DNA of 64,000 nucleotides from Rubripirellula amarantea (lineage in GTDB: Bacteria; Planctomycetota; Planctomycetia; Pirellulales; Pirellulaceae): assembly GCF_007859865.1 (NCBI RefSeq), contig NZ_SJPI01000002.1, forward strand, positions 578,721-642,720. The letters run 5' to 3'. Each line of letters opens with the position of its first letter. Position 1 is the stretch's first letter. Positions 41,382 through 57,966 of the stretch are shown here, in pieces. The position numbers were made by a program, and so were the translations under genes. The notes under the pieces were generated by a model that was not told the DNA's origin, searched no databases, and saw only the letters and a list, made by a program, of their open reading frames with translations.

Positions 41382-44300
41382 TCATCGCATGTCTGTCGAT
41401 ATTATTGAGCCGAGTTCATGATCCGCTACTGAGGCATTCGGATTTGAACTACGTTTGATGTCTGATCTTTCGCCCTTCTGGGGTTCCACATATAGACTAC
41501 CTCTGTGACTTTCAGGTTGGGATCGAAGTGGTGCAGGTAGCGTTGCAAGCAACGGTCCGAACCAACTTCGCATTTCCTCGATACTGCGGTCCAGGCTATC
41601 GACTGGTGTCTCAATAGGCATAACTGTATCGTCGCTACGGATGACTTTGACAAACGAAACCATCTCACCATCAGAACTAGCTGATAGCGAAGTCCGCGTC
41701 ATACGGTTGATCACCTGCAACGCATCCAAAGCGGTCACGTCACCGTCACCCGATACGTCCGGCAATAGGCCTGCAGTTCGTAAGTTTCCTTCGACTCGAG
41801 CTAGGAGATTAACGATCAACAACGCGTCGAGTGCTGATGTCTGTCCGTCCAGGTTGACGTCACTCGGATAGAGGACGTTTGTTAATGCCTCCGTCCGACT
41901 ACCTACATGCTCGAAGTCCAGTTCGACGGTGATCTCGTGATCTAAGGGCGGCACCAACAAAACATACGTTTGAGGAGAAAGCGATATTGTTTGCAGGGAC
42001 GTTTCGTGCGACGGATCGACTAGTGATCCAAGTATCTCGCGATCAGATGAGATAATTCGTGGCATCGCCAGACTGGTTGGCGACAGGCCTGACGTAGTTA
42101 GGGACAAGTCAGATTCTTGCCCGATCGAAAACACGAGAGTCCGATACTGACTTGATGCCGGTACGGTAATCTGTCCATCGTCTAAATCCAAAATTGCGAC
42201 GTCGACCTGTTCCGCATCTAGTTGAAGCCCGTTTGTTCCCGTTGGAAGCCGAATAGCGACGGATTGGTCCATCGAACCGGCATCCCATATCAAGCGATAG
42301 AAACCTGCGGGTTGCCCATCGAAATCAAGGCTTCCGGATTGGCTATCGCGAACAATCTGTCCTGTCGAGTCTGCCAAGCGTAGATCGAGGAAGGACTCTT
42401 GCCCGGTGGCAAAGACACCGTCCAACGCACTACCCACTTGGTGTAGCACTACGTCCATTTCGCCGGTACCAGAGGTTTGCAGAAGCATAGTGCCTGCAGT
42501 AAATCGTGACGCTTGGACGGTTGATGCCACGATTGTTCCCATCGACAGACCCTGCGATGCAATTTGTTCCACCGAACCGCCCGACCGAATAGCACCGTAG
42601 AATGATCCCAGCACGTTGACGGACTCGATATCGTGATCTGCCACAATGGATGCTTGTGTGGCGGCCACATCATCCGAATCCAACGCACCCACTTCCTCGG
42701 TACTTGAATCAGGCAAATTCGCACTGCCAAAATCGCCCAGTACGTCGATGTCTCCCAAACTGGCGGCACTCAGTCGGCCATTCCAACTTCCATGAATTGT
42801 CATTTGCGTCAATCGTTGCCCAATACTCATCGCCGCCGCGGTGGACGACTCAAAGGTGGCCTCATCAAGTGAATCGGCAACCTGAATGACGGCATTTTCG
42901 GCAGTGCTATTGATCCGCAACGATTGCAAGCTGCCACCCACCGAAATGCGGCCGTGCAACTTCCCATGAAGGTCGACCTGTCCGAGTGATGCTACTGAGA
43001 TGACATCGTTAACGTCGACGGGAATAGACTCGGTCCCAACTTGAAGTCCAACGGCGGTTTCACTATTGAAAAGAATCTCGCCAATGCGTGCGCCCTGCTG
43101 ACTTGCACGAACGGAAACACGTGTCTGGTTGGTGGCATCGCGAACGACGATTCTTTCAATATCACCTTGATTTGCGGTTGCGGAGCTGGTTTCCACATCC
43201 AGTGTTCCGCCACCCGAAATTTCCACGACAATACGGTTTCCTGAGTCATCGATAATCTCAGTAAGCTCGTTCTCATCCACCGAAATCGACTTCGGTACAC
43301 GTCCGATGTTGATTGATGATACGATCAATCGTTGTTCAATTTCTTCGGTAGAGCGACGCACATTGACGGAAACCGTTTGGGCACTATTGAACTGATCTGA
43401 ACTGCGTTCGGATCCTTTTAACCGGATTGTGTAAATACCGGCAGATGGAACCTGATAGCGCAGGTGAGGATCAAGTGAGACAGCGTTGGTGATCGGATCA
43501 ATTGAATCATAGACCGTCGACTTTAGTGCGCCACTTTGGTCATAGACTTCCATTTGCAAGTCCAGCTTTGATCCGAGTGATTGAGCGTCCACGTCGATGA
43601 AAAGTACTTCGTTTTCGCCCGCTTCGACGTTAATCTCTGCTACTTCTGCACCGCCGAAGGCTTGGTAAATGAACGTGCTGACTTGCCCTACACCTGTGAA
43701 GCTGGGGTCGCCGGGGTCCGGGCCAACGAACGCGGGTGGAATCTGAAGCGCTTGGCGGAGTCGCTCAACACTGTCCTCGAACTCTCCAGGTGGCAACTTC
43801 AGTCCAAGAAAAAGCTGCCCGCGACCAAACCGTTCGTCGTCGCTCCGGTCCGTGTCAAGCTTACCCGTCTGCATCAAAAGTCCGTCCTCTACCTGATGTG
43901 ACAACCCAAGCAGATGACCAACCTCGTGACTGAGAGTACTCGCAATTGCTAGAGAGACTGTATCGAGATCTTTGCCATAGACGGTTGGTTCGGTGCGGAA
44001 CGCTTGTGTGAAGACTGCAGCATTGTCCTCGATATCTCGATTGCCAATGTCCACCTTTTGCGCCAGTCCCAGAACACGCTGGAGCGGGTAACTTCCTCCG
44101 ATCATAATGGTGGAATATTCCAAGTCGTCCGATGGGCGTTCCAAGACGAAATCGATCGGGAGATTTAACGGAGTATCAGGATCCTCGAATGAGCCGCTAA
44201 CGATAAAGTCGTCAAGCACGTGCTCATACACTCGCTCAATGATGGCATCGCGTTCGGAAGCCGGGCGACCGACATCCGCCGGGTCGAAGGCGGGTAAATG

Positions 44301-46238
44301 AAAAGAGTACTGGTTGTGGTCAGTAAACCTACCTCCTTCAAAATCCAGATACACTGTTTGGATGCGATTGCTTCTCGCATTAGTGCTGACTTTGGTATCG
44401 AAGCGGACGATGTACTCACCGGTCGTGGTACCGCCATCGGCTGCCGTGACGGATGCACCGCTGGATACATAGTTCTGGTTGCCAAAGCTGGAAACGCCAA
44501 CATAGTAGATGCCGGGTGTTACCAACACGCGTTCTAGCCACGAATCGCTGCTATTTCCGGTGACGGGATCAAACGCGTCGTCGTTGCTGGCTAACTCGTT
44601 TCCGTCCGAATCAAACAGCCGCACGTAAGAGTCTAGCGAAGATCCATAGGGACTGGCGTCAATGTCGACCTTCAACAAAGTGGGGCGTTCCATATCGCTG
44701 AAGTCCAAACGAAACATGTCGATATCATTGATATCATCGATTGCCGAATTTCGTTGGGACGTTTCGTAGGGAACGAGCAGCCCCATATTAGCGGCCGCGG
44801 TAAATGTGTCGCCGATTGAGTCGCTGGTCAGACCATCTGCTTTCTCAAACAGAGCTGTGAGTACATAGAAATTATCTACTTCAGTCGTCGACCCATCGAC
44901 GCGTACGACGTAAGTTCCGGGTTCGAGCAGCCTTCGGATGACGGGATCAAGGCCTCGGTATTCCGTGTCAGGATCGACGCCACTCTCGCTGACTTCAAGA
45001 ACATCCGCGGAAGCGTTCATCAAGGTTAAACGCCCGTCCAGGGTCGACATTCCAATTTCTTGCGCATCAATGTCGAGTGTTAGCCATCCGCGGCTGGTGA
45101 GTTCAAATTGATAGTGATCGAGGTCGTCATCCGGACGCACCTCTGCTCCACGAATTTCCAACGGCACATTCGGCAAGATCGAAACTGGGGTGGCTGTTTC
45201 AAACGTGTCGTTGAATTCGTAGGCGCCAAAAGGAATCCGAGGCGATGAGGTAAAGCTCAAGCGGTAAGCCCCCACTGAATCGTCTTCGCCGCTCACGCGT
45301 ACCGCGACTGCCCCACCGACACGATCACGGTATCGCAACAGTGAATCGCCCGAGTCGTCGCCTGTGTCGGGATCGACGCCGTCGAGGTTGCTGGCCAATA
45401 GCTCGCCGGTAGCCAAGCGATATAGTTCGATGGCTGAATTAAGTTCGGATCGTTCACCGTCACGAGCATCAATATCAATGACCAAGTCGCCAGGGACTTC
45501 GTTGTCGAATGAGAAGTAGTCGACGTCTCCTTGGGCTATCACCGCATCGACGGCTAGAACTCGTGGAATCACCGAACTGATACGTGATGCAGTCCCCAGC
45601 GTGTCGTTCGGTTCAATCGAATCATTTTCAACCGGTTCACCAGTTCCAGTCCCAGTTCCACCGCCATTGTTGCCTCCGCTACCAGATCCTGTATCGTCGC
45701 CCAGCTCTACACTGAACTGATAATCGACCATCCGAATTTCTGTGTAACCGTGATCAGCAATGTGTGCTGGTAGCAACGTTACAAAATACGTCCCCGGTTC
45801 TAGCAAACCAAAGTTGTGAACGAGTTCCGTTGATTCGCGATCGTTGTAGATCGTTTCCAGTGCGCTACTTGAAGAATCTGAATCGTACAACAAGACCACA
45901 ATTTGGTGATCGTCGAATACCGCAAACTGTTGCAGCCGAAATGCGACGTGCTGAGCCGACTCAACATCGAAACTAAAGTTGTCGGGGTCGATGTACCGCG
46001 TATCGTCCGGGTCACCTGCAAAGTACCCAAGGTTACCTTCGATGATTTGCTCACCGACAATACCAATGTCTTGCGCTTGTGCACGAGAGTCGTTGTACGG
46101 TGTTTCTTGAACCAGCGTTGCCGTCAACAATCTTCGCTGTTCTAGCGTTTCCAGCGAAAGCATACGGCATCGATTGGGACGTTGGATCTGGCAATCACGT
46201 CGCGATAGCGGACGTGTTGGTGTCGGTAATTGGGACAT
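41382..46238 (-). CDS. Giant secreted protein: PPC repeats, metzincin protease and dockerin
   Basis: A 1618-residue exported protein. The N-terminus has the planctomycete leader motif MLSLETLEQRRLL (about residue 26-38) instead of a standard signal peptide. Four or five PPC-like beta domains follow (for example DVDYFSFDNEVPGDLVIDID and DIDMFRLDFSD). A metzincin-type catalytic site is at about residue 769: HEVGHLLGLSH, with a later LLMQTG as candidate Met-turn. Another PPC-like domain, a long beta-rich region, and a C-terminal dockerin type I pair (about 1457-1519: DVNLDGQTSALDALLIV and DVSGDGDVTALDALQVI) follow. After the dockerin comes a tail of about 100 residues. ATG 46238 is preferred; the frame is open to 46316. 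Likely an anchored surface protease; cohesin partners were not seen. Confidence 0.82.
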   Translation of the reverse strand: MSQLPTPTRPLSRRDCQIQRPNRCRMLSLETLEQRRLLTATLVQETPYNDSRAQAQDIGIVGEQIIEGNLGYFAGDPDDTRYIDPDNFSFDVESAQHVAFRLQQFAVFDDHQIVVLLYDSDSSSSALETIYNDRESTELVHNFGLLEPGTYFVTLLPAHIADHGYTEIRMVDYQFSVELGDDTGSGSGGNNGGGTGTGTGEPVENDSIEPNDTLGTASRISSVIPRVLAVDAVIAQGDVDYFSFDNEVPGDLVIDIDARDGERSELNSAIELYRLATGELLASNLDGVDPDTGDDSGDSLLRYRDRVGGAVAVRVSGEDDSVGAYRLSFTSSPRIPFGAYEFNDTFETATPVSILPNVPLEIRGAEVRPDDDLDHYQFELTSRGWLTLDIDAQEIGMSTLDGRLTLMNASADVLEVSESGVDPDTEYRGLDPVIRRLLEPGTYVVRVDGSTTEVDNFYVLTALFEKADGLTSDSIGDTFTAAANMGLLVPYETSQRNSAIDDINDIDMFRLDFSDMERPTLLKVDIDASPYGSSLDSYVRLFDSDGNELASNDDAFDPVTGNSSDSWLERVLVTPGIYYVGVSSFGNQNYVSSGASVTAADGGTTTGEYIVRFDTKVSTNARSNRIQTVYLDFEGGRFTDHNQYSFHLPAFDPADVGRPASERDAIIERVYEHVLDDFIVSGSFEDPDTPLNLPIDFVLERPSDDLEYSTIMIGGSYPLQRVLGLAQKVDIGNRDIEDNAAVFTQAFRTEPTVYGKDLDTVSLAIASTLSHEVGHLLGLSHQVEDGLLMQTGKLDTDRSDDERFGRGQLFLGLKLPPGEFEDSVERLRQALQIPPAFVGPDPGDPSFTGVGQVSTFIYQAFGGAEVAEINVEAGENEVLFIDVDAQSLGSKLDLQMEVYDQSGALKSTVYDSIDPITNAVSLDPHLRYQVPSAGIYTIRLKGSERSSDQFNSAQTVSVNVRRSTEEIEQRLIVSSINIGRVPKSISVDENELTEIIDDSGNRIVVEISGGGTLDVETSSATANQGDIERIVVRDATNQTRVSVRASQQGARIGEILFNSETAVGLQVGTESIPVDVNDVISVASLGQVDLHGKLHGRISVGGSLQSLRINSTAENAVIQVADSLDEATFESSTAAAMSIGQRLTQMTIHGSWNGRLSAASLGDIDVLGDFGSANLPDSSTEEVGALDSDDVAATQASIVADHDIESVNVLGSFYGAIRSGGSVEQIASQGLSMGTIVASTVQASRFTAGTMLLQTSGTGEMDVVLHQVGSALDGVFATGQESFLDLRLADSTGQIVRDSQSGSLDFDGQPAGFYRLIWDAGSMDQSVAIRLPTGTNGLQLDAEQVDVAILDLDDGQITVPASSQYRTLVFSIGQESDLSLTTSGLSPTSLAMPRIISSDREILGSLVDPSHETSLQTISLSPQTYVLLVPPLDHEITVELDFEHVGSRTEALTNVLYPSDVNLDGQTSALDALLIVNLLARVEGNLRTAGLLPDVSGDGDVTALDALQVINRMTRTSLSASSDGEMVSFVKVIRSDDTVMPIETPVDSLDRSIEEMRSWFGPLLATLPAPLRSQPESHRGSLYVEPQKGERSDIKRSSNPNASVADHELGSIISTDMR

Positions 46239-46564
46239 AAGACGACATAGATGCGAGTCATGATGGGGCGTTCGCGAGTGACACGATGGAACGTGCCGGA
46301 CCCACACCATGATCATAGTCGATCCCCAGCGTTATGGGGGGGCTTGGTTTCCGCATGCATCAAGCATTACCAATGAACGTGGATGTAGAATCATCCAGCG
46401 ATCACGCAGTCAATCGAGAACGGTCGTCGTGGCTCGCCAGAGAGCCAACTCAACTCATCGTATTCGACTTGTCCGCCAATGCCGATTCGCCTCTGAGCTA
46501 TGCCGTTGTTTGGCGACTTTGTTTGGCGACTTTGTTTGGCGACGTTGCTGACTGTTTTGCGGTG
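46239..46564. other. Intergenic region before the giant protein gene
   Basis: 326 bp with no supported gene on either strand; the right half holds the 13-bp repeat at 46508-46546. The giant gene's promoter should lie in the left half. Confidence 0.5.
46508..46546. repeat. Short tandem repeat, 13 bp x 3
   Basis: gtttggcgacttt twice, then gtttggcgacgtt, ending 18 bp before the polysaccharide deacetylase stop (minus strand). Confidence 0.9.
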
Positions 46565-47371
46565 TTAGCCTTCTTGCTTGGACTTTACCCAGGCAGCAGC
46601 TTCTTGGAAGGTTGCGACCCAGACGTTGTCGTCGTTTTGCAGGAAGCGAAGCAGTTCTTTGTGGTCTTCAGCGCTGATCGCCAAGTGATCGCCACCCACC
46701 CCGTGGAACATGAAGACCACCCAACCGTTCTTTTCGCGTGCTGCGGTCACTTGGCTTAGTTGATACGCCAAGTCTCGCTGGTCGCCCGCAACCGTCTTTA
46801 CCTCGTACAGGTCAATCTTGCCTTCTTCGGGAACGTGGAATCCGTTTCTGGTCGTTCGTGCCGCGAAGAATCGTTCTTTGACCATCGGGATATAGCTGTG
46901 ATTGTCTTCGCCGATCGTCGTGCCGCCGCAAGGGTAGGCGAACGTGGCTGTCTCGCGCTTGACGCCATTGCTGACCAAGTTGGCAAGGTTCTCATCAAGC
47001 TCTTTCGCCATCCGAGCATCATCGTAGTCCTCGGCCGCGTTGCCGGGCTTCACCCAATCGTACTTCCGGGCGCACGGATGGAGGATCGTGTGTCCCGCTA
47101 ACTCGTGCCCCTCTTCGCGAATCCGATCTACTTCTTCTTGGGACCAAAGGTAGGTGGCACCCCCGGTGCAAAAGAAAGTGCCCTTCAGTTTCGCAGCCTT
47201 GAGTTGCGGCAGTGCATGATCGATTTGACTTCGGATCCCGTCGTCATACGTGAGTGTCACGCAATAAGTCTTGCCCTCTGGCCAAAACCCATCTTCGGCA
47301 GCCGCCATTGACGGGGCCGCGATCAGCAACGCGACAAATGCGATCCATGTTGACTTAGAAATGACACTCAT
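46565..47371 (-). CDS. Secreted polysaccharide deacetylase (NodB-like, CE4)
   Basis: A 268-residue exported carbohydrate esterase. The signal peptide (WIAFVALLIAAPSMAAA) is followed by NodB motif 1 TLTYDDGIRSQ, in which the catalytic Asp pair is visible, and motif 2 AGHTILHP with the two metal His; motif 3 TFAYPCGG and the distal VFMFHGVGG are also present. Family members deacetylate GlcNAc in chitin, peptidoglycan or other surface glycans. ATG 47371 (MSVISKST) is chosen; the frame is open to 47479. It runs in the same direction as the giant protein gene but is separated by 326 bp. Confidence 0.9.
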   Translation of the reverse strand: MSVISKSTWIAFVALLIAAPSMAAAEDGFWPEGKTYCVTLTYDDGIRSQIDHALPQLKAAKLKGTFFCTGGATYLWSQEEVDRIREEGHELAGHTILHPCARKYDWVKPGNAAEDYDDARMAKELDENLANLVSNGVKRETATFAYPCGGTTIGEDNHSYIPMVKERFFAARTTRNGFHVPEEGKIDLYEVKTVAGDQRDLAYQLSQVTAAREKNGWVVFMFHGVGGDHLAISAEDHKELLRFLQNDDNVWVATFQEAAAWVKSKQEG

Positions 47372-47495
47372 AGCGTTAAGCTCTTGGGAGATAGACCAAT
47401 GGCAATGCACGAAGCGGGAATGACGCCGCTTTGCAAAACGAGTACTCATGATAACCCGAAGCGCTGGCAAGGACGTCAACTAATTACCCGCTAAC

Positions 47496-47630: not shown

Positions 47631-49250
47631 CTACCAACGCAGGCCGAACTTCTCGCCACCGGATTCGCGGTTGTTGCCACCTTTAAGTGGCCCAGAGTGG
47701 GAAGCTTTGACGGCGACTTCGCGTTGTGGCTCGTCTTCCTCTTCTTCTGGCTTGGACGTTTCGGGGGCACCGATCGATTGTGCCTGCTTGATTGACAAGC
47801 CGACCTTTTGCGCGTCTCGATCGAAGGACACCACTTTCACTTCCACTTCGTCACCTTCGTTCACAAAGGCGTCCACTTTGGAAACACGATGGTGCGCCAA
47901 TTCGCTGATGTGCACCAAGCCTTCGACTCCGGTGCCAAGTCGGACGAAGGCTCCAAACGGGGCAACTCGAGTGACGGCGCCTTTATGAACGCTGCCGACT
48001 GGGAATTCCGCTTCTGCGGCGTCCCAGGGATTTTCGAGCAAATCGCGGTACGAAAGCGAAATCTTTCCGGTTTCTTTGTCCATCTTGTCGATGCGGACCA
48101 TTACCTTTTGGCCGACTTCCAAGACATCGCTGGGGTGCTTCACTCGATCCCAGCTCAGTTTGCTGATGTGGATCAGGCCATCGAGCCCACCGAGGTCGAC
48201 GAAAGCACCGAAGTCCTTGATGCTGCGCACGACGCCTTCGCCTTCGTAGCCAACATCAAGTTTTTCGAGTTGCTCTTTCTTCTTCTCTTCACGCTCACGG
48301 TCCAAGATCGCTCGACGCGATAGAACCAGGTTCCCGCGACGCTCGTTAGATTCGGTCACCACGCAAAGAAACTTCTGGTCAACAAATTCGGATGTGTCTT
48401 CCACGCGATAGTCAGCAATTTGACTGATCGGAATGAAGCCTTTCATGTTGCCGACTTTGACTTCTAAGCCACCGGAATTGTGTCCGGTAACGACTGCATC
48501 AACGACACTGCCTTCGTCGATGTCTTCCCAGTCCGACGCTTCTACTGCCGCGCCGGGAAGTCCAAGCGAGAACAATCCGTCCGCCTTGCTAAAACTGCGA
48601 ACGACGACTTCGATGGAAGCTCCGATGGCAGGTTCTTCGGTAAACATTTCAAACGGAACAACGCCTTCGTCGGGACCACCCAAGGCGACGAACACGCTAT
48701 CGTCATGGATCTTCAAGACCGTGGCAAATAGGCGTTGACCTTCGGACAATGGTTCTTTGCGGTCTGGCATTCCAGCATCGCCGCCGAGCATGCCTTCGAC
48801 ATCCGCTGCGGCTAGTTCAGCATCAAGTTCGGCCTGCAGGTCGTCGTCGAGGCCGCCTCGCATGGAAGGTACTGCAACCTTTCCGGGCAAAGCAGGCTTG
48901 GCGCGACGTTCGGCGGATTCGGGAGCATCACCAATGACGCGGGGGCGAGGCGCCTTTTTGGGCTTCGATGGCTTTTTGCCGGCTTTGGAGTTCTGCTTTT
49001 CTAGCTGCTCGGTGCTGACTGACGGAGACGCCGGCTTGGCGACTCCGAGTCCGCGGGCTGCCAACGGGCCTCCGCCGCTGCGTGCGGCACCGGCAAGCGG
49101 GGCCGGTTTGGATGCCGCAGCGGGCTCACTGGAAGCCTGTGTTTCCGGCTCATTCCCCACTGTGGGCGGTGTTTCTGGCGTAGTCGCCGCCGCGGGTTCG
49201 GCAGTGACAGACTCGGCGCTGTTGGTTTCAGGGGTGTCGCCGTTACTCAT
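47631..49250 (-). CDS. S1 RNA-binding domain protein (RpsA-like, four S1 domains)
   Basis: A 539-residue RNA-binding protein. The first ~165 residues are Ala/Pro/Glu/Lys-rich and likely disordered. Four S1 domains follow, with starts near [56 protein letters not shown] and [18 protein letters not shown]; the last two are the most typical ([21 protein letters not shown]). E. coli S1 has six domains; four is common in other phyla. The C-terminus is basic/Gly-rich. ATG 49250 starts MSNGDTPE. Role as ribosomal S1 or as a general translational RNA binder cannot be separated. Confidence 0.85.
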
Positions 49251-49561: not shown

Positions 49562-50047
49562 ATGTCCCAGGGAAAAATGTCATCTGACGTCTTGGACTCA
49601 TCCGATTTGGTCCAACTTGTCTACGTCAGCGCAGCCACCGTCGCGTTCAGCGATGATCAACTCGATCATCTGTTGGAGGTCGCTCGTCACAACAACGCCG
49701 CCCTCGATGTTACGGGTGTGCTGCTGCTGCGAGAAGGAACGTTCTTTCAAGTTCTCGAAGGATACTCCGACGTCGTCCAAGATCTTTACGACAAGATCGC
49801 GTTGGACCAACGGCACGGCAAAGTGTTGGTTCTGACCAAGCGTTCGATCGAAGAACGCAACTTTGGTGACTGGAGCATGGGGTTCGTTCGCGATCAACGT
49901 GTGATCAACGAACTACCGGGCTTCGTAGATTTCTTCAGCGGTCGCACATTCCTAGACCTCGCCGGTGACTCACGCCGCGTGGAACAGACCCTCGACGGCT
50001 TCCGCCGAGGTCGTTGGCGTCGGCAAGTGGCCGATGGAATTTGTTGA
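49562..50047 (+). CDS. BLUF-domain blue-light photoreceptor
   Basis: A 161-residue single-domain BLUF protein that should bind FAD and sense blue light. Key residues are present: the flavin-contacting Tyr in LVQLVYVSAAT (about residue 21), the Asn in ARHNNAALDVTGVLLL, the Gln in FFQVLEG (about 62) and the Trp in GDWSMGF (about 103). A C-terminal helical tail of about 45 residues (SRRVEQTLDGFRRGRW) may be the output or dimer contact. ATG 49562 opens MSQGKMSSDV. It is the first gene of the sensory cluster and 126 bp before H-NOX, so light input may meet the gas signal in the same pathway. Confidence 0.93.
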   Translation: MSQGKMSSDVLDSSDLVQLVYVSAATVAFSDDQLDHLLEVARHNNAALDVTGVLLLREGTFFQVLEGYSDVVQDLYDKIALDQRHGKVLVLTKRSIEERNFGDWSMGFVRDQRVINELPGFVDFFSGRTFLDLAGDSRRVEQTLDGFRRGRWRRQVADGIC

Positions 50048-50173
50048 CGACGTTGATTGATTGATGGACGGCGTACCCAATGCAAGCGCCGTCGCCAGAT
50101 GATGACTGATCGTTCAGTCACGGCTCACGTGAAGAGCCAACACAAAGTGGAACTCATAGTCGAGGAAGGTGTC

Positions 50174-50743
50174 ATGAAAGGGATCGTATTTACTGAGCTG
50201 ATTGAAATGGTGGAAGAGGATCTTGGAATCGAGATCGCCGACCGAATGATCAGCGGCGCAAAGACTTCGAATGATGGCTCGTACACATCCGTAGGAACCT
50301 ACGACCACGCAGAACTTATCCAGCTCGTGATTTCGCTGTCGGCTGAAACGGGCATCCCGGTACCCGATTTGGTTCAAGCGTTCGGCAAGCACTTGTTCGC
50401 ACGCTTCCATGAACTTTACCCCCAATTCTTTGCGGGCATCGATTCGGCAATCGACTTTCTTCCGATGGTGGAAGCCTACATTCACGTCGAAGTTCGAAAG
50501 CTCTATCCCGACGCCGAACTTCCGTCGTTCCAGTGCGAAACGAGCGGCGAAATGTTGAGCATGACCTACCAATCCAAGCGTCCGTTTGCGGACTTGGCCG
50601 AAGGTTTGATCGCGGCTTGCATTACTCACTTTGGCGATCCCATCGACATGACTCGCAAGGACCTTGGCGCACAAGACGGAACGCAAGCCTGCTTCCTGCT
50701 GCGTCCTACTTCGGATGTGCCAGCGGAAGAAGTGGCGGTCTAA
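50174..50743 (+). CDS. H-NOX haem-nitric oxide/oxygen binding sensor
   Basis: A 189-residue stand-alone H-NOX protein. ATG 50174 follows GAGGAAGG, while in-frame codons continue upstream to 50057 without family similarity. The proximal haem ligand is His104 in YIHVEVRKLYPDAELP, and the YxSxR haem-propionate motif is at 132-136 (YQSKR). The N-terminus MKGIVFTELIEMVEEDLG is family-typical. Bacterial H-NOX proteins bind NO (some also O2) and control a partner kinase or cyclase. Here its stop overlaps the kinase start (TAATG), the classical H-NOX/HNOK arrangement. Whether it binds O2 depends on distal-pocket residues I cannot judge here. Confidence 0.94.
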   Translation: MKGIVFTELIEMVEEDLGIEIADRMISGAKTSNDGSYTSVGTYDHAELIQLVISLSAETGIPVPDLVQAFGKHLFARFHELYPQFFAGIDSAIDFLPMVEAYIHVEVRKLYPDAELPSFQCETSGEMLSMTYQSKRPFADLAEGLIAACITHFGDPIDMTRKDLGAQDGTQACFLLRPTSDVPAEEVAV

Positions 50744-52083
50744 TGTCTGACATCGAACTGCTGAAGCGACGATTCGAGCGAGAGAGAGCGGCCCGAAAGG
50801 CGGCTGAGTCTCTGCTGGAACAAAAGTCACTTGAGGTCTATCAAGCGAACCTCAAACTTAGCGAACTTGCCGAACACACCGAAGCAATTGTCGAAACCGC
50901 TGCCGACGGCATTGTGACGTACGGACAAGATGGTGTCATTCGTTCGTTCAATCGTTCGGCGGCGAGGATCTTTCAACGTGAATCCGGAATAGGGTTAAAC
51001 GTCCGCGATTTGTTTCAATGCAGCGACACGTTGTGCAGCGTGCTTTTTTTGGCCGATGACTTCCGGGAATCGAACGCGAACAACGAACCACTTGAATTTG
51101 TCGGAGTGCGTGCCAGCGGACAAGCGTTCCCAGCCGAAGTTTCGACCAGTCGCGTCGAACTGAACGAATCGTTGGTCTACACGTCGCTCATTCGCGACCT
51201 GTCCAAACGCAAAGAATTAGAGGTGCGGTTGGGGCAAGCTCAAAAGATGGAATCCGTGGGTCAGCTAGCCGCTGGGATCGCGCACGAGATCAATACGCCC
51301 ATCCAGTTCGTTGGCGACAACATCAAGTTCTTACAAGGAGCGTTTGAGGACATTTCTGATCTGCTGGCGCTGTATGACCAGTTGGTGGAAGCGGTCGATG
51401 GGAATCAACCCACGCAAGAGGTCCTGTCGCAAGTCAAGCAGCAGTGCGAGATCGCCGATCTTCCGTTCCTGCAAGACGAGTTTCCCAGCGCGATTGCTCA
51501 ATCCCTCGAAGGAATCGAACGCGTCGCCACGATCGTGCGAGCAATGAAAGAATTCTCGTTGCCAGCGACCCAAAGCAAGTCCGCGATCGATATCAATCGA
51601 GCCATCGAAAACACCTTGGCGGTCGCAGCGAATCAAGCCAGCGAGATTGCAACGATACAAACGGAACTCGATCCGTCGCTGCCACCGGTTCTTTGCCTCG
51701 CCGGCCAAATGAACCAGTGCTTTCTCAATCTACTCACCAATGCGGTCGAGGCGATTGCTGATCACTGCGAACCAGGTGCCGGAAGAATCAAAATCAGCAC
51801 TCGCGCCGACAAGGATGCAGTCGAAATTCGCGTCGAAGACAATGGCCCCGGCATCCCAGCGGAAATCACCAACCGTATCTTCGATCCGTTCTTTACCACC
51901 AAGCCCGTGGGCAAGGGCACCGGCCAAGGACTTTCGTTTGTGTATGGCGTGATTGTCGACATGCATGACGGGACCATCCACGCGCAATCGCCTCCCAACG
52001 GCGGGACCACATTTGTTGTCTCCCTTCCCGCTCACAACTACGCCGAAACGAAGGGGAGGGCTCATGCGAATTCTGCTCATTGA
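50743..52083 (+). CDS. PAS-domain histidine kinase coupled to H-NOX
   Basis: A soluble 446-residue kinase with no membrane segment. An N-terminal coiled coil (RRFERERAARKAAESLLEQ) leads to a PAS domain (about 45-160: IVETAADGIVTYGQDGVIRS). The phospho-acceptor is in [11 protein letters not shown] (about residue 181). A longer than usual dimerisation region with an insert follows before VRAMKEFSLP. The ATPase has the N-box FLNLLTNAVEAI, G1 DNGPGIP, F-box FDPFFTTK and G2 [10 protein letters not shown]. It begins inside the H-NOX stop codon (TAATG), so H-NOX is its likely input. The next kinase gene overlaps it by 20 bp. Confidence 0.93.
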   Translation: MSDIELLKRRFERERAARKAAESLLEQKSLEVYQANLKLSELAEHTEAIVETAADGIVTYGQDGVIRSFNRSAARIFQRESGIGLNVRDLFQCSDTLCSVLFLADDFRESNANNEPLEFVGVRASGQAFPAEVSTSRVELNESLVYTSLIRDLSKRKELEVRLGQAQKMESVGQLAAGIAHEINTPIQFVGDNIKFLQGAFEDISDLLALYDQLVEAVDGNQPTQEVLSQVKQQCEIADLPFLQDEFPSAIAQSLEGIERVATIVRAMKEFSLPATQSKSAIDINRAIENTLAVAANQASEIATIQTELDPSLPPVLCLAGQMNQCFLNLLTNAVEAIADHCEPGAGRIKISTRADKDAVEIRVEDNGPGIPAEITNRIFDPFFTTKPVGKGTGQGLSFVYGVIVDMHDGTIHAQSPPNGGTTFVVSLPAHNYAETKGRAHANSAH

Positions 52084-53401
52084 TTCCGACCCCAATCGAC
52101 CTCAACGGTACGAGCGATGGCGACAAAGACTGCAACCGTTTGACGATTCGCTGACCACAGCATCGTCACCATCCGAGGCCGGGGCAATTGTCGCTTCGTC
52201 TCACTTCGGTCTTGTCATCCAAGTTTCCGGTTCGGATCGCAGTGCGAATAATGAAGCCCTCGGTCACGCCGTCGACGAACTGCGTTCTCGCGCTGGCTAT
52301 GTGATCGACGCGGTCGAGAATGCCATCGAACGAGGGCACGCGTTCACGCTCGGCTACGACGACTGCGTTATGGATGATTGCGATGATGTCGAATTGGCGA
52401 AGCGAATCAAGAACGCCAGCGATCTCGAAAAACTCAATCAACGTTTGGCCCAGGCTCAAAAGCTCGAATCCATCGGCGAACTTGCCGCCGGAATCGCTCA
52501 CGAAATCAATACTCCCATTCAATATGTTGGCGACAACACCCGATTTGTCCAGGAAGCCTGTGGTGACCTGGAAGCTGTGTTGAAAACCTGCCAATCGTTA
52601 CTCGTCGCCGTTGACACCGGAATCAACGTTGACGAGGCAACGGACAAGCTGCGCAGCGCGATGGGCGATGCGGACATCGATTACTTGATCGAGGAAATCC
52701 CATCGGCGATCTCGCAAACGCTCGAAGGCGTTGACCGAGTCGCAAACATTGTGCGTGCGATGAAAGAGTTCGCTCATCCGGGCGTTTCCGAAATGACGCT
52801 GACGGATCTAGCACACGCGATCGGCAACACGGTCATGGTGGCTCGAAACGAGTGGAAGTATGTCGCGGAACTGGTAACCGATTTCGACCCCAACATGCCG
52901 CTGGTTCCTTGCTTGCCAGGTGAACTCAATCAAGTGTTGCTCAATATGATCGTCAACGCGGCCCACGCGATCGGCGATACCCTTGGCGAAACACCGGATG
53001 CGAAGGGCACGATCACCATTAGCACCAAGTCTCAACCGCACCATGCCGAAATCCGCATCACGGACACGGGCAGCGGTATTCCAGAAGACCACTTGGAACG
53101 CATCTTCACTCCGTTTTTCACCACCAAAGGTGCTGGCAAGGGAACGGGACAAGGCTTGGCGATCGCTCAGTCAGTCATCGTCGAAAAGCACGGTGGATCC
53201 ATCGATGTGGAAAGCGAACGCGGCCAAGGAACCACGTTCGTGATTCGGATTCCTTTGCAAAACGAGCCAGCCAGGTCTAACGAGCCAGCCACGCATAACC
53301 AGCCAGCCAAGCAAGCTAGCGCCGGCACGTCAGGCGTACCGCCGGTGGCGCTCTCGCGAGCCGCGGGGACGATCCCGATCCCCATCTCGCAGCCTCATTA
53401 G
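52064..53401 (+). CDS. Histidine kinase with degenerate N-terminal receiver
   Basis: A 445-residue soluble kinase. The N-terminal ~110 residues resemble a receiver ([11 protein letters not shown] keeps the acidic pair), but the phospho-acceptor position reads LVIQVSGSD, with no Asp, so it is probably unphosphorylatable. The H-box is [11 protein letters not shown] (about residue 146), the same family and same dimerisation insert as the preceding kinase, which suggests duplication. Complete N, G1 (DTGSGIP), F (FTPFFTTK) and G2 ([10 protein letters not shown]) boxes indicate active ATP binding. ATG 52064 lies within the end of the previous gene after GGGGAGGG. The C-terminal tail carries 18-bp in-frame repeats (53261-53314). 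Confidence 0.92.
53261..53314. repeat. In-frame 18 bp x 3 repeat at the kinase C-terminus
   Basis: Three 18-bp units around aacgagccagcca, coding [12 protein letters not shown] and NQPAKQ, just after the kinase catalytic domain ends. Confidence 0.85.
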
Positions 53402-53443
53402 CTTGGCAGCCTCACTAGCTTGGCAGCCTCACTAGCTTGCCGG
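53393..53443. repeat. Short tandem repeat, 17 bp x 3, across the kinase stop codon
   Basis: Units cctcattagcttggcag, cctcactagcttggcag and cctcactagcttgccgg. The TAG in the first unit is the stop codon of the kinase. Confidence 0.92.
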
Positions 53444-53512
53444 GCAAGCACTGGGGTTACGACTCGCATCCGAGTCGTCACGAACTGAATGAAAACAAGA
53501 ATAGAGCGGACC

Positions 53513-54721
53513 ATGGAAATCAAAACAAAAGTCATGTTTGTCGACGACGAAGCCAACGTACTCGCGGGCCTGCGTCGCATGCTTCGTTCACAGCGAAAGG
53601 TGTGGGACATGCGATTCGCAAACGGCGGTGAAGACGCGTTGCAAGAACTTGCCAAGGATCCCGTGGACGTGATCGTAAGCGACATGCGAATGCCAGGCAT
53701 CGACGGTGCCGAACTCCTTTCGCGAGTATCAGAGCTCTACCCGAACACCGTACGTCTGGTGCTTAGCGGCCAATCCGAACATGAAAAGATCTTTCGAGCC
53801 ATCGGTCCGGCTCACCAATTCATGTCCAAGCCTTGTGACCCCGATGTTTTGATCAGCACGATCGATCGAGCTTGCGGACTGCAAAGTCAATTGTCCGACG
53901 AATCGCTTAAGAACGTCGCTTCGCAAATCACGACGCTTCCAAGCTTGCCGACGATCTATCGCGAATTGGTGTCCGAACTTGAATCGAACGATGCGTCGAT
54001 GGATCGCATTGGACGGATGATCGGTAGCGACCTCGCGATGACGGCCAAAGTTTTGCAACTGGTGAACTCGTCCTTCTTCGGATTGCCGACTCACGTGACT
54101 TGCCCCACCCACGCGGTTTCGATGCTGGGGCTGAACATCATCCGACCATTGGTGCTGACCGCGAACGCGTTCTCGCAGTACGAGGATCCTGGTGTCGAGG
54201 GGTTTTCGCTTGAAACGTCAATTCAACACAGCTTAGCGGTCGCAACCTCCGCCCGATCGATCGCCGAGAGCGTAAGTCAGCAGAACCACTTGGTGGACGA
54301 CGCGTTCATTGCGGGGATGCTTCACGATGTCGGGAAACTCATCCTAGCGGTGAATCTTCCCGAGAAGTACAGCGAGGCGTCGCGTTTAGCGAATGTCGAA
54401 AATGTTCCTCTTTGGCAGGCGGAGCTTGACGTCTTTGGAACCACGCACGCGGAAGTGGGCGCTCATTTGCTCGGCCTTTGGGGACTGCCAAATCCGATCA
54501 TTGAAGCGGTTGCGTTTCATCATCGACCCAGTGATGCCGAAACGACATGCTTCACTCCGCTTACCGCTGTGCACGTCGCGGATGTGCTGCAAGATTCGAA
54601 CTATCCCAACGATGATTCGCCCGCGAGTCTCACCTGGGACCTCGATTACCTCAACGCGATACACGCCACCGGGCAACTGGACGGTTGGTCCATCATGGTG
54701 GACTCGGGAGTCCTCTCATGA
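53513..54721 (+). CDS. Response regulator with HDOD output domain
   Basis: About 402 residues (ATG 53513; ATG 53489 would add eight). The receiver (1-120) keeps the acidic pair in VMFVDDEA, the phospho-acceptor Asp in VIVSDMRMPG, the Thr/Ser region and Lys in FMSKPC. An HDOD domain follows (about 135-340: LPSLPTIYRELVSELES, NSSFFGLP, MLGLNIIRPLVLT). HDOD domains usually lack the HD catalytic pair, but here AGMLHDVGKLI preserves HD, with HHRPSDAE later. HDOD proteins act in signalling and often bind partner proteins or nucleotides. Its ATGA overlap with the next gene indicates coupling. Confidence 0.9.
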   Translation: MEIKTKVMFVDDEANVLAGLRRMLRSQRKVWDMRFANGGEDALQELAKDPVDVIVSDMRMPGIDGAELLSRVSELYPNTVRLVLSGQSEHEKIFRAIGPAHQFMSKPCDPDVLISTIDRACGLQSQLSDESLKNVASQITTLPSLPTIYRELVSELESNDASMDRIGRMIGSDLAMTAKVLQLVNSSFFGLPTHVTCPTHAVSMLGLNIIRPLVLTANAFSQYEDPGVEGFSLETSIQHSLAVATSARSIAESVSQQNHLVDDAFIAGMLHDVGKLILAVNLPEKYSEASRLANVENVPLWQAELDVFGTTHAEVGAHLLGLWGLPNPIIEAVAFHHRPSDAETTCFTPLTAVHVADVLQDSNYPNDDSPASLTWDLDYLNAIHATGQLDGWSIMVDSGVLS

Positions 54722-56019
54722 GTTCCAAAGTCTTACTCGTTGACGATGAGCCCAACGTGTTGAAGGGCTACCAACGTCACCTTCGAAAAAGCCACGACAT
54801 CGAGCTTGCCGTTGGCGGTGACGAAGCGATCGAAGCCATCCGGACTCAAGGCCCGTTCGCCGTCGTCGTGTCCGACATGCAGATGCCCGAAATGTCCGGC
54901 GTTGAACTGCTCAGTAAGGTTCGCGACATCAATGAACACACCGTTCGCATTATGTTGACGGGGAACGCGGATCAAAAGACGGCAGTGGACGCGGTCAACG
55001 AAGGCAACATCTTTCGATTCTTAAACAAACCTTGTTCGCCCGAGAAACTCGCCCAAGCGATTGATGCTGGCCTGGATCACTATCGTTTGGTCACCGCGGA
55101 AGCGGAACTGTTAAACAAGACCCTGGCCGGAAGCGTTCGGATGTTGACCCAGGTGTTGTCGCTGGCGATGCCGGAAGCGTTCGGGATGACCCAGGAATCT
55201 CGTCGGCTCGCTCGAGCGGTCGCCGAACGAATGTCCCAGGTGGGCTGCGTTGACTTGGCGGCTGTTGAGATAGGTCCCATGTGGCAAGTCGAAATGGCGT
55301 CGATGTTGATGAGGGTCGGTTGTGTATCGTTACCCACGGACGTGCTTCGCAAGTATTTGACCGACCAAGCTCTCTCGGCTGATGAGGCTAAATTGGTCAA
55401 AGAAACGCCTCAGCTAGGTTACAACCTCGTTTCGGCGATCCCAAGACTGCAACCAGTTGCCGAGCTCATTCGTGCCCAAAATGATCCTGCCGTCGACGAG
55501 ACTCCGATCGTGGCAAGGATTCTAAAGGTCATTGGTGACTACCAACGCTTTCAAGCTGCCTCGTCGCCCTTTGCCGCACTGCAACGATTGGCTGGTTCAA
55601 CGCGATACGACTCTCGCGTCGTCGATGCGTTAGCCGAAATCATCTCGGACAGTTGTGAGATCCGTGATGTCGAGATCTTCGGCCTCAAGGAAGGCATGAT
55701 CCTTGAATCCAACGTTGAAGATGTCATGGGACGAGTTCTGATCGCGACCGGTGCGGAAGTCCATGACGCCATGATTCAAAAGCTCGCGTTGCTGAAACGC
55801 TCTGCCGCCGGTGTTCGCGAACCGATTCGCGTCCGAGTCGTTGTCAGCACCCAATCGCCCGATCATGCGGAATCCGGTGCTGAACAAGTCGATCCTGGTC
55901 AGGCTAAAGCTGGCGTGGCCACGGTTGCCGACACCAAAGCAGTTAACTCCAAACGCGAGCCGTCTGATGATTCATCGGGCTCAGCACCGACCACCAAAAC
56001 ACTTTTAGCTAGTGCGTGA
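54718..56019 (+). CDS. Response regulator with degenerate HD-GYP-like domain
   Basis: 433 residues. The receiver (1-120) has LLVDDEPN, the phospho-acceptor VVVSDMQMPE and the RpfG-like FRFLNKPC. The following ~220 residues have the helical layout and the C-terminal GLKEGMILESNV segment of HD-GYP regulators, but neither an HD pair nor a GYP triplet could be found, so phosphodiesterase activity on cyclic-di-GMP is unlikely. The last 60 residues are a disordered Ala/Ser/Asp tail. ATG 54718 overlaps the preceding stop (ATGA). The domain could still bind a nucleotide or a partner. Confidence 0.85.
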   Translation: MSSKVLLVDDEPNVLKGYQRHLRKSHDIELAVGGDEAIEAIRTQGPFAVVVSDMQMPEMSGVELLSKVRDINEHTVRIMLTGNADQKTAVDAVNEGNIFRFLNKPCSPEKLAQAIDAGLDHYRLVTAEAELLNKTLAGSVRMLTQVLSLAMPEAFGMTQESRRLARAVAERMSQVGCVDLAAVEIGPMWQVEMASMLMRVGCVSLPTDVLRKYLTDQALSADEAKLVKETPQLGYNLVSAIPRLQPVAELIRAQNDPAVDETPIVARILKVIGDYQRFQAASSPFAALQRLAGSTRYDSRVVDALAEIISDSCEIRDVEIFGLKEGMILESNVEDVMGRVLIATGAEVHDAMIQKLALLKRSAAGVREPIRVRVVVSTQSPDHAESGAEQVDPGQAKAGVATVADTKAVNSKREPSDDSSGSAPTTKTLLASA

Positions 56020-56052
56020 CGTAAACCCAAGTTTTGCAACCGGAGAAAATCC

Positions 56053-56433
56053 ATGCTTTCGATTTTGATTGTTGATGACGATGTGAATTTGCTGAGCGGA
56101 TTGCGTCGCGCGTTGCACGACCAGCCCTACGATTTGTTTACCGCGAATTCGGCAGAGATGGCGATCGACATGTTCCATCGCAAAGCCTTCGATCTGGTCC
56201 TTGTGGATCAAAAGATGAGCGGGCTTAGCGGAGCGGAATTGATCGCGTGGATCGCTCAGGAGTTTCCTGACACGGTGCGTTTAATGCTCACCGGTCACGC
56301 TGATGTGAACATGATGATGGACGCGATCAACAATGGAAAAGTGTTTCGGTTCCTCACGAAGCCCAGCCATAGCGTTGACATTGCGTTGGCGATTTTGGAA
56401 GGACTGGAATCAAAGCTCGCCAGTGCGGTTTAG
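56053..56433 (+). CDS. Single-domain response regulator (CheY-like)
   Basis: A 126-residue lone receiver: acidic pair LIVDDDV, phospho-acceptor LVLVDQKMSG, Thr in MLTGHAD and Lys in FRFLTKPS. The FRFLTKP end resembles the receiver of the preceding gene, so both may respond to the same kinases. With no output domain it may act as a phosphate shuttle or sink, or as a protein-binding switch. It starts 33 bp after the previous gene, probably in one operon, and is the last gene of the cluster. Confidence 0.9.
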   Translation: MLSILIVDDDVNLLSGLRRALHDQPYDLFTANSAEMAIDMFHRKAFDLVLVDQKMSGLSGAELIAWIAQEFPDTVRLMLTGHADVNMMMDAINNGKVFRFLTKPSHSVDIALAILEGLESKLASAV

Positions 56434-56517: not shown

Positions 56518-57966
56518 TTAGCACTCGCTAATATTGACCGTGATTTGGACGGCGAGGCCGCCTTCGGACGTTTCCTTGTACTTGGTGTTCATGTCCTGCG
56601 CTGTTTCCCACATGGTTCGAACGACCGCGTCCAGGGATACGCGAGCTTCGGTGGGGTCACGGTGCAGCGACATTTGCGCCGCGGTAATTGCTTTGATCGC
56701 TCCCATCGCATTGCGTTCGATGCAGGGGATTTGGACTAAGCCTCCGACCGGATCACAGGTCATCCCCAGGTGATGTTCCATCGCAATCTCAGCCGCCTCG
56801 GTTGCTTGGCGAGGTGAACCACCGAGGCATTCACACAACGCCGCAGCGGCCATCGCCGACGACACGCCGATCTCGGCTTGGCAACCGCCCATCGCCGCGG
56901 AAATGGTGGCGCCCTTTTTAAAGATGCATCCGATCTCCGATGCGTTCGCCAGAAAATCCATCCAAGCGACATCGGCGGGCCCGGTACGATTACCAGTTTC
57001 TGCCTGCTCACTGGTTTCACAAAAACACAGGTAGTACATCAGCACAGCCGGTATGACGCCGGCGGCACCATTGGTTGGCGCGGTGACGACGCGGCCGAAC
57101 GCAGCATTCTCTTCGTTAACAGCCAACGCAAAGCAACTTACCCAATCGAGCACGCGCGAAAAGTCATGAGTTTGCCGAGTGACCAACTGCATGAATTCAT
57201 CGAACTCGGCGGGAACTGAACTACCGAGCAACGATGTAGAGGTGTGCGCGGCGCGACGTTGAACGTTCAACCCACCGGGAAGGATCCCTTGAGTCCGACA
57301 GCCGCGGTGAATGCTCGCCAGCATCGCATCTTTGATTGCAGACATCTCAGATAGAATCTCTGAGTCGCTACGAAGAGACCGCTCGTTGTGCAGTACCACT
57401 TTGCTGATCGGCAGCCCTTCGCGATCGCAATGGCGCAGAAGGTCTTCGGCATTCTCGATGCTCCAGGGCATCTCAGTGGCAACGGGACCTGGTGTTTCGC
57501 CGGCCTTGATGATGAACCCGCCACCAATCGAATAGAAATCCGCTTGATCGGTTTCTTTCTCGTTCGCAAACGCCGTGAAGCGAATCCCGTTGGGGTGCTC
57601 GGGTAACTGTTGATCGGAATGAAAAACGATGTCCAATGGCGGATCAAAGTTAATCTCGTGCTGGCCTAGCAATTTGATTCGCTTGCCTTTAGCGATCTGT
57701 TTCACCAAGGTCGGTATTCGGTCAACGTCCACCGTGCGAGGATCATGACCGCAAAGCCCCATTTGGATTGCGATGTCCGTGCCGTGACCCTTGCCCGTTT
57801 TGGCCAGCGAACCAAATAGCTCGACTTTCACTCGCGAAAGCTCTGATAAGTCCGAGGCGGGCAATTCGGCCAGGAACCGTTGGGCCGCCTTCCATGGCCC
57901 CATCGTATGCGAGCTCGACGGGCCAACCCCGATCTTGAACATGTCGAAGACACTAAGCGCTGGCAC
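56518..57966 (-). CDS. sdaA: L-serine ammonia-lyase (iron-sulfur type)
   Basis: Deaminates L-serine to pyruvate using a [4Fe-4S] cluster. The N-terminus [20 protein letters not shown] is the family hallmark. Cluster cysteines are visible in [20 protein letters not shown] and in [19 protein letters not shown]. At 482 residues it is a single-chain enzyme (alpha and beta parts fused), like E. coli SdaA. GTG 57966 gives the usual [10 protein letters not shown] start. It converges with the sensory operon, separated by 84 bp with no hairpin seen. No link to neighbouring genes is apparent. Confidence 0.96.

Follow-up and report, generated by a model that had tools for sequence, protein, structure and literature searches.

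The stretch of DNA analysed here (the window) is 64,000 nucleotides long and comes from Rubripirellula amarantea. Seven open reading frames on its + strand, at positions 49562-56433, encode in order a BLUF protein, an H-NOX protein, two histidine kinases (HK1 and HK2), a receiver-HDOD protein, a receiver with a degenerate HD-GYP domain (REC-HD) and a lone receiver.

49562..50047, + strand: short BLUF protein of 161 aa; C-terminal helix; Arg-rich tail FRRGRWRR; PF04940, 6e-30
50174..50743, + strand: H-NOX protein, a stand-alone haem sensor of 189 aa; PF07700 (HNOB), 2.5e-37
50743..52083, + strand: HK1, a PAS histidine kinase; PAS_9 and HATPase_c (Pfam)
52064..53401, + strand: HK2, a histidine kinase whose predicted N-terminal receiver fold has no phospho-acceptor Asp; HATPase_c (Pfam)
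53389..53481, no strand assigned: three 17-nt direct repeats spanning the stop codon of HK2, plus an 11-bp hairpin between HK2 and the HDOD gene
53513..54721 (alternative ATG start at 53489), + strand: receiver-HDOD response regulator; Response_reg, 2e-20, and HDOD, 1.8e-54
54718..56019, + strand: REC-HD, a receiver with a degenerate HD-GYP domain; Response_reg and HD_5, 4.9e-14
56053..56433, + strand: lone receiver of 126 aa; Response_reg, 1.2e-21

The H-NOX stop codon and the HK1 start codon have one base in common (TAATG), HK1 and HK2 overlap by 20 bp, and the receiver-HDOD and REC-HD genes share ATGA at their junction. The ORF coordinates and Pfam matches thus bear out the initial annotation, which had described seven same-strand genes with these overlaps. 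Gaps of 126 bp, 87 or 111 bp and 33 bp separate BLUF from H-NOX, HK2 from the HDOD gene and REC-HD from the lone receiver, respectively. Long ORFs on the opposite strand flank the cluster (47631-49250 and 56518-57966), so the seven-gene unit is bounded. A promoter scan was uninformative (1 site observed, 3.7 expected). The two larger gaps and the hairpin inside the window's cluster count against the two-input reading proposed below.

Sensors, kinases and output regulators

The BLUF domain scores 103.6 bits against a curated Pfam cut-off of 25, and the gene is the only BLUF match in its genome. Y21, N45, Q63, W104 and M106, which we take to be the Tyr, Asn, Gln, Trp and Met of the BLUF flavin site, are invariant in all 11 aligned cluster BLUFs. 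The closest PDB matches of the predicted structure (mean pLDDT 71.7) are the PixD proteins Slr1694 and Tll0078, with a query TM-score of 0.65-0.68 in the best rows. The FRRGRWRR tail is a newly noted feature common to the cluster BLUFs; it is modelled at a pLDDT below 50 and falls outside the PixD comparison, as the PixD alignments end before it.

The H-NOX protein, encoded by the sole HNOB match in the genome, scores 128.7 bits against a Pfam cut-off of 25.5. In an alignment of 14 H-NOX rows H104, P117, Y132 and S134 are invariant and R136 is present in 13; we take H104 to be the proximal His and Y132, S134 and R136 to be the Y-x-S-x-R motif, with P117 as the corresponding H-NOX proline. Three further positions were provisionally assigned to the distal haem pocket by matching to the Thermoanaerobacter protein. 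Leu74 and Leu141 are invariant in the same alignment, and the residue corresponding to Leu9 is Leu or, in one case, Phe in 13 of the 14 aligned segments, where readable.

An H-E-I-N-T box is kept in all 14 aligned HK1 rows, an alignment that omits L064, L068 and L067, the last for its split HK1 frame. The first approximately 126 residues of HK2 are predicted to form a receiver fold (model pLDDT 91.3, receiver folds among PDB entries matching best) without a phospho-acceptor Asp. This pseudo-receiver is a newly noted feature, absent from the initial annotation. The Asp is present only in L211 and missing from the other 12 of 13 rows, the window's HK2 among them, and a working receiver in HK2 was rejected.

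Neither an HD nor a GYP motif could be read by eye in any of 14 aligned REC-HD homologues, which confirms the earlier description of this sixth gene as a degenerate HD-GYP protein. Its assignment to NosR (NCBIfam NF053512) was rejected, the score being 189.4 bits against a curated cut-off of 400. A canonical receiver-HD-GYP protein is encoded by an eighth gene in two BLUF-containing clusters (L061 and L066), a protein of this type is also found in the BLUF-less clusters L197, L198 and L211, and R. amarantea has a homologue unlinked to the cluster. The R. amarantea genome has nine GGDEF and two EAL matches. Pfam found no EAL domain in the window's own cluster, both matches being on other contigs, and that cluster encodes no phosphodiesterase. 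The HDOD-bearing protein SadB binds c-di-GMP, although in the excerpted account the binding domain is not pinned down (PMC6543031).

Distribution and history of the cluster

H-NOX genes of the cluster's type occur in 13 of 241 genomes of the family, with BLUF directly upstream in 11 of the 13, across five genera; widening the search from the first 199 genomes to 241 added no further cluster-type H-NOX. Seven further genomes of the family have the complete seven-gene order, one of them with a split HK1 frame (L067), and an eighth relative, L070, has the first five genes before its contig ends. Both the gene order and the placing of BLUF beside H-NOX, on which the initial annotation had staked its proposal, are thus conserved in relatives. 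As gene content, though not as biochemistry, a combined light and haem-gas input to one set of kinases and receivers is well supported.

The packing of the genes varies. In L061 eight genes are separated by at most 63 bp, and the distance between BLUF and H-NOX reaches 242 bp in L063. BLUF still adjoins H-NOX in loci whose remaining half-cluster sits upstream (L062, L063 and L213; genes further upstream in L063 fall outside the fetched stretch). The flanks differ between several of the seven loci compared, a set without L062, L063 and L070. Outside the family no BLUF gene adjoins H-NOX in a 392-genome sample of the phylum, where four other genomes carry both genes. Among 58 named BLUF loci whose fetched flanks, some of them short, were scanned with two peptide patterns, H-NOX was found only in L139, L141 and L142, which, judged by their place, are G055, G164 and G050 again.

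A tree of 38 hand-picked stand-alone H-NOX proteins, from which fused H-NOX proteins of about 500 aa were omitted, places the 11 rows with BLUF within one 13-row clade that includes two BLUF-less rows. The cluster BLUFs and two orphans likewise form one clade with support of 93/98, which is weak (73/87) when four orphans are added. These sequence trees fit a single recruitment of BLUF followed by losses, and we infer that the direction was a gain, with BLUF joining the front of an H-NOX operon that already existed. It seems that an NO relay gained the photoreceptor on one occasion and that five genera have retained it. All BLUF-containing clusters probably descend from one event, and the 11 genomes are then not 11 independent observations.

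Four related BLUFs have no H-NOX nearby: those of G198, G063 and G193 and an additional copy in G151. G193 and G063 have a cluster-type BLUF without any H-NOX match in the genome and G180 has an H-NOX cluster without a cluster-type BLUF, so neither component needs the other and BLUF appears to be an add-on input and not an obligate part. The G193 orphan, the only complete one from a genome without an H-NOX match, has lost Q63 and M106; the other three retain all five flavin-site residues.

All 10 BLUF-containing clusters readable that far have the lone receiver, as do two of eight BLUF-less ones, counts from hand-picked rows, uncorrected for kinship, that omit BLUF-less L200, L201, L202, L208, L209 and L210 (contig or stretch ends, or too short a reading), BLUF-containing L070 (contig end), loci of 3.5 kb only and loci without an adjacent HK1-type kinase. 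Its presence in G180 and G008, whose clusters have no BLUF, shows that it is not a partner reserved for BLUF, and no such receiver lies alongside the orphan BLUFs in L212, L214 and L283. In G151 the second BLUF gene precedes a lone receiver gene by 67 bp, and the 15-kb stretch holds no further gene of the cluster. Both proteins have their nearest counterparts in one cluster, that of G181. It is the only pair of this kind observed, and its receiver is fast-evolving.

A candidate two-input relay

The cluster resembles the H-NOX/HnoK/HnoB/HnoC/HnoD network of Shewanella oneidensis, which as excerpted also comprises a stand-alone H-NOX protein, a kinase and several response regulators; in both, H-NOX adjoins the kinase. 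The Shewanella network includes HnoC, and its HnoD is a degenerate HD-GYP regulator. Its receiver-EAL phosphodiesterase output, HnoB, is absent from the cluster described here, which in turn has two kinases and HDOD and lone-receiver outputs; no BLUF is named in the excerpted account of the network. According to that account, HnoK is inhibited by HnoX in its NO-bound form, and HnoB by HnoD (PMC8846402). The NosP-NosK-NosR system of Burkholderia is similar in having an auxiliary haem NO sensor, a kinase with an H-E/D-x-x-T/N motif and a receiver-degenerate HD-GYP protein (PMC12570481), but NosP is a FIST protein and not an H-NOX, and there is one kinase, one regulator and no photoreceptor.

Cyanobacterial PixD, the top fold match, is like the cluster BLUF a short BLUF protein with C-terminal helices. 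It works through a response-regulator-like partner, PixE (PMC5899715). The PixD-PixE pair has no haem sensor or kinase. The lone receiver is a candidate counterpart of PixE, which at 43 kDa is larger than this 126-aa protein.

Rhodobacter AppA, like the cluster, joins BLUF light sensing to a haem-related signal; it is a single protein acting on a repressor, with no H-NOX and no two-component relay. In the literature searched, as far as the excerpts go, H-NOX-kinase NO sensing and blue-light sensing by short BLUFs are treated apart, and no arrangement joining BLUF and H-NOX to one relay was found there.

Our preferred reading, held with about even confidence, is that the cluster is an NO relay, H-NOX/HnoK-like, that acquired a PixD-like BLUF on a single occasion, forming a two-input signalling module. 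On binding NO, H-NOX would control how active HK1 is, just as HnoK is governed by its H-NOX. The paralogous kinases HK1 and HK2 would phosphorylate the receiver-HDOD, receiver-degenerate-HD-GYP and lone receiver proteins and, through their H-E-I-N-T motifs, probably dephosphorylate them. The HDOD and degenerate HD-GYP proteins may be non-catalytic effectors in c-di-GMP signalling. The degenerate HD-GYP protein would probably modulate a true receiver-HD-GYP phosphodiesterase, whose gene belongs to the cluster in some relatives and lies elsewhere in the R. amarantea genome. The initial annotation had tentatively suggested attachment or motility as what is controlled. BLUF would be an accessory protein joined to the front of the operon. 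Blue light would probably act through contact between proteins; the likeliest partner is the lone receiver, in the PixD-PixE pattern, and failing that the HK2 pseudo-receiver. More tentatively, the relay may be light-gated: BLUF and H-NOX would feed one kinase pair, light entering at the dead receiver of HK2 and at the lone receiver, and the regulators would read NO only under a given light, or the reverse.

It is rather doubtful that a kinase, and not the lone receiver, is the direct target of BLUF, whether at the HK2 pseudo-receiver or at the HK1 PAS region. A receiver fold without a phospho-acceptor is a natural docking domain, and BLUF remains beside H-NOX and HK1 in rearranged clusters; against this, the pseudo-receiver is also present in the BLUF-less clusters L073 and L075, and the spare BLUF of G151 sits with a receiver and no kinase. 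An independent BLUF that has the locus, perhaps also a promoter, in common with the relay and signals elsewhere is unlikely: the orphan BLUFs persisting away from H-NOX and the wide spacing from H-NOX in the window and in L063 favour it, but adjacency holds in most genomes with this H-NOX, in five genera and with several different flanks, and survives the rearrangement of the cluster.

The initial annotation had proposed NO or O2 as the signal, and O2 or redox sensing in place of NO would also be compatible with Cys121, present in 11 of the 14 H-NOX rows. We consider it very unlikely. O2-binding H-NOX proteins have a polar distal pocket, a polar trio with a Tyr, whereas L9, L74 and L141 offer neither a distal Tyr nor any other polar pocket, and the 14 rows have no conserved four-cysteine set. 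Because these distal residues are apolar, NO appears from the sequence to be the likelier ligand; the NO part of that proposal gains support and the O2 part loses it. Chance neighbourhood or an annotation artefact has a negligible probability and was rejected, given the order and adjacency conserved across genomes of other genera and the trees; nothing turned up in its favour.

If the light-gated reading is true, this would be the first two-component module, of those found, to take separate plug-in inputs from a flavin photoreceptor and from an H-NOX protein into one set of kinases. The cluster's parts could be built into an optogenetic switch with two inputs. If the inputs converge, the cluster would be a genetic system for how one kinase pair sums two signals, and could show what short BLUFs bind outside cyanobacteria and what roles HDOD and degenerate HD-GYP regulators have. 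In sunlit water light and NO can vary jointly, which makes such two-input logic plausible.

Composition and gene order of the cluster

The initial annotation placed seven genes on the + strand of the window at 49562-56433, and reading of the open reading frames (ORFs) bears this out, together with the overlaps it had described: the H-NOX gene and the first kinase gene (HK1) share TAATG, HK1 and the second kinase gene (HK2) overlap by 20 bp and the two regulator genes share ATGA. Pfam likewise recovers the domains named there, in the order BLUF, HNOB, PAS plus kinase, kinase, receiver-HDOD, receiver-HD_5 (REC-HD, gene 6) and a lone receiver. The only HNOB match and the only BLUF match from a domain search of the Rubripirellula amarantea genome lie inside the cluster, and the long ORFs flanking it on either side are on the opposite strand. 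Three 17-nt direct repeats span the HK2 stop codon (53389-53439) and a hairpin lies within the HK2-HDOD gap (53456-53481). Outside the cluster a 1644-aa ORF on the - strand (41382-46316), which from sequence reading resembles a large secreted protein of planctomycetes, adjoins a deacetylase-like ORF (46565-47479).

Gene order was annotated in 20 Pirellulaceae stretches. The seven-gene order is complete in seven (L061, L064, L065, L066, L067, L068 and L069), where identity to the window proteins ranges from 45-76% (BLUF) up to 65-85% (HDOD); L070 carries genes one to five and then ends. HK1 is split over two frames in L067 (8428-9785, genome labelled Rhodopirellula baltica BR-MGV), either by sequencing error or as a pseudogene. 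L062 and L063 retain BLUF-H-NOX-HK1 with a lone receiver and REC-HD upstream, and L213, the stretch upstream of L062, encodes HK2-HDOD-REC-HD-receiver, then a second receiver and a third kinase. Genome G180 has the L062-type arrangement without BLUF (L073), and G198 has H-NOX-HK1-HK2-HDOD-REC-HD, BLUF and lone receiver both being absent (L075). The second lone receiver and third kinase occupy L062:1135-2909 and L073:10502-12273; a domain search, of L062 only, finds the N-terminal part of this kinase CheX-like.

When the flanks of the seven complete loci and the window were compared, those of the window were common to L068 alone, where a homologue of the window ORF 47631-49250 lies on the opposite side of the cluster. 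Matching flanks also unite L064, L065 and L067; the other matches are just an eighth gene (L061, L066) and one weak L068-L069 match. The seven genes thus stay joined in at least several different surroundings.

Frequency and history of the BLUF-H-NOX pairing

In a first sample of 199 family genomes HNOB was found in 62, BLUF in 46 and both in 20. Cluster-type H-NOX, defined as 311 bits or more (next score 288) with a query alignment built from these same rows plus G008, occurs in 13 of 241 family genomes. That BLUF is conserved beside H-NOX holds in 11 of these 13, where it lies directly upstream; G198 has an unlinked cluster-type BLUF, and the sole BLUF of G180 is of another type. The phylum sample of 392 genomes has HNOB in 42 and BLUF in 32, and besides R. 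amarantea four genomes of that sample carry the two (G238, G255, G262, G305), in no case adjacent. In a named collection H-NOX adjoins BLUF at 3 of 58 BLUF loci, which belong to K23_9, to the genome bearing the label Rhodopirellula baltica BR-MGV and to one Planctomycetales MAG; these appear to be G055, G164 and G050 of the family set.

The H-NOX tree (38 rows) places the 11 BLUF-bearing rows inside a 13-row clade (93/89), the remaining two being G180 and G198. A single clade (93/98) of the BLUF tree (44 rows) comprises all 11 cluster BLUFs plus two orphans (cluster-type BLUFs away from H-NOX), those of G198 and G063; support drops to 73/87 with four orphans and fewer outsiders. The simplest account is that BLUF was gained once and later lost, gain and loss being inseparable by the trees alone. 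BLUF was probably added to a pre-existing NO relay, because a BLUF-less core (H-NOX-HK1, with or without HK2, with HDOD and/or REC-HD) occurs in other genera of the family (L197, L198, L199, L203, L206, L211).

Residues Y21, N45, Q63, W104 and M106, which we take to have their BLUF roles, are invariant in alignment across the 11 cluster BLUFs, and three of the four orphans keep all five. The orphan of G193 (L283:7038-7688), a genome without an H-NOX match, has lost Gln63 and Met106 (H at 63, L at 106) and is therefore perhaps blind. Each of the 11 cluster BLUFs has FRRGRWRR at its C-terminus; elsewhere in the examined BLUF ORFs F.RGRW recurs only in the four orphans, and a looser F-x-x-G-R-W ends BLUFs of other families (L110, L121, L131). 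The BLUF model (pLDDT 71.7) has PixD as its best fold match. In the H-NOX alignment conservation extends to the proximal and the propionate motif, and apolar residues fill the distal positions; among solved chains 6ocv gives the best sequence match (3e-43).

Kinases and output proteins

Alignments show H-E-I-N-T retained in HK1 and HK2; the NosK study connects H-E/D-x-x-T/N with phosphatase activity (PMC12570481). The N-terminus of HK2 lacks the acceptor Asp in 12 of 13 aligned rows, and its model (pLDDT 91.3) matches receivers; the L211 HK2 has an intact receiver with the Asp present (Pfam Response_reg 2.5e-26). In the HK1 alignment a seven-residue gap (one heptad) separates the N-terminal helix from PAS in all 10 aligned BLUF-clade rows, two of them without BLUF; four rows outside the clade are ungapped.

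HD and GYP are absent from gene 6 in all 14 aligned homologues. By motif reading, the eighth gene of two loci encodes a receiver protein whose HDxGK and HHExxDGxGYP motifs are canonical:
L061:9593-10819, eighth gene, receiver-HD-GYP
L066:3107-4294, eighth gene, receiver-HD-GYP
L211 encodes the same type with identical motifs, L197 and L198 by similarity and motif with N replacing D in HHExxDG, and an unlinked homologue in R. amarantea (G000:C4:248225-249322, 44% identity) has both motifs. That genome has 9 GGDEF and 2 EAL matches by domain search. A true and a dead phosphodiesterase side by side, as predicted from motifs, resemble HnoB and HnoD of Shewanella (PMC8846402).

Candidate entry points for light

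Beyond the clusters described above, BLUF also lies near a receiver or an HDOD gene:
L284:6579-7710 (G151), second FRRGRW BLUF, with a lone receiver 67 bp downstream
L285:6011-8160, BLUF-HDOD of genus g51
L286:5801-7998, BLUF-HDOD of genus g51
L287:6759-9090, BLUF-HDOD of genus g51

G151 also has a full cluster, apart from this pair. In the tree its second BLUF pairs with the G181 cluster BLUF as sister (94/87; 61% identity). The paired receiver best matches the G181 cluster lone receiver (65 of 139), although the receiver tree fails to fix the position of the paired one. The pair appears to be a G181-type cluster lacking its middle, only the first and the last gene being present, and these two genes seem to be retained together. 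Among clusters readable that far, the lone receiver is present in 10/10 with BLUF versus 2/8 without (Fisher 0.0015, rows chosen by hand and shared descent ignored by the test). Given the PixD-PixE precedent, in which BLUF works with a response-regulator-like partner (PMC5899715), the lone receiver is the first candidate for the entry of light and the HK2 pseudo-receiver the second. Against the lone receiver, it is present without BLUF in G008 and G180, and none lies beside the orphan BLUFs in L212, L214 and L283. Near L283, on the opposite strand, are a receiver-GGDEF protein and a CHASE-PAS kinase. In all three g51 genomes examined, BLUFs of a different group precede, in the same orientation, an HDOD gene recognised by BLAST alone, which makes a second BLUF-HDOD neighbourhood.

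The literature searched, mostly non-subscription, contains no description of BLUF combined with H-NOX, and nothing joining H-NOX with Planctomycetes, Rhodopirellula or HDOD, or BLUF with HDOD. H-NOX and BLUF are both named in PMC8846402, PMC3482212 and PMC9578409, and some papers name BLUF photoreceptors together with Planctomycetes. Two light sensors per operon are already known, since a PYP operon survey includes two operons with BLUF (PMC12826048). The function of the cluster is one that we infer; the seven-gene combination itself is real and conserved, every part of it is already known, and what is novel is the joining of these parts together with the HK2 pseudo-receiver.
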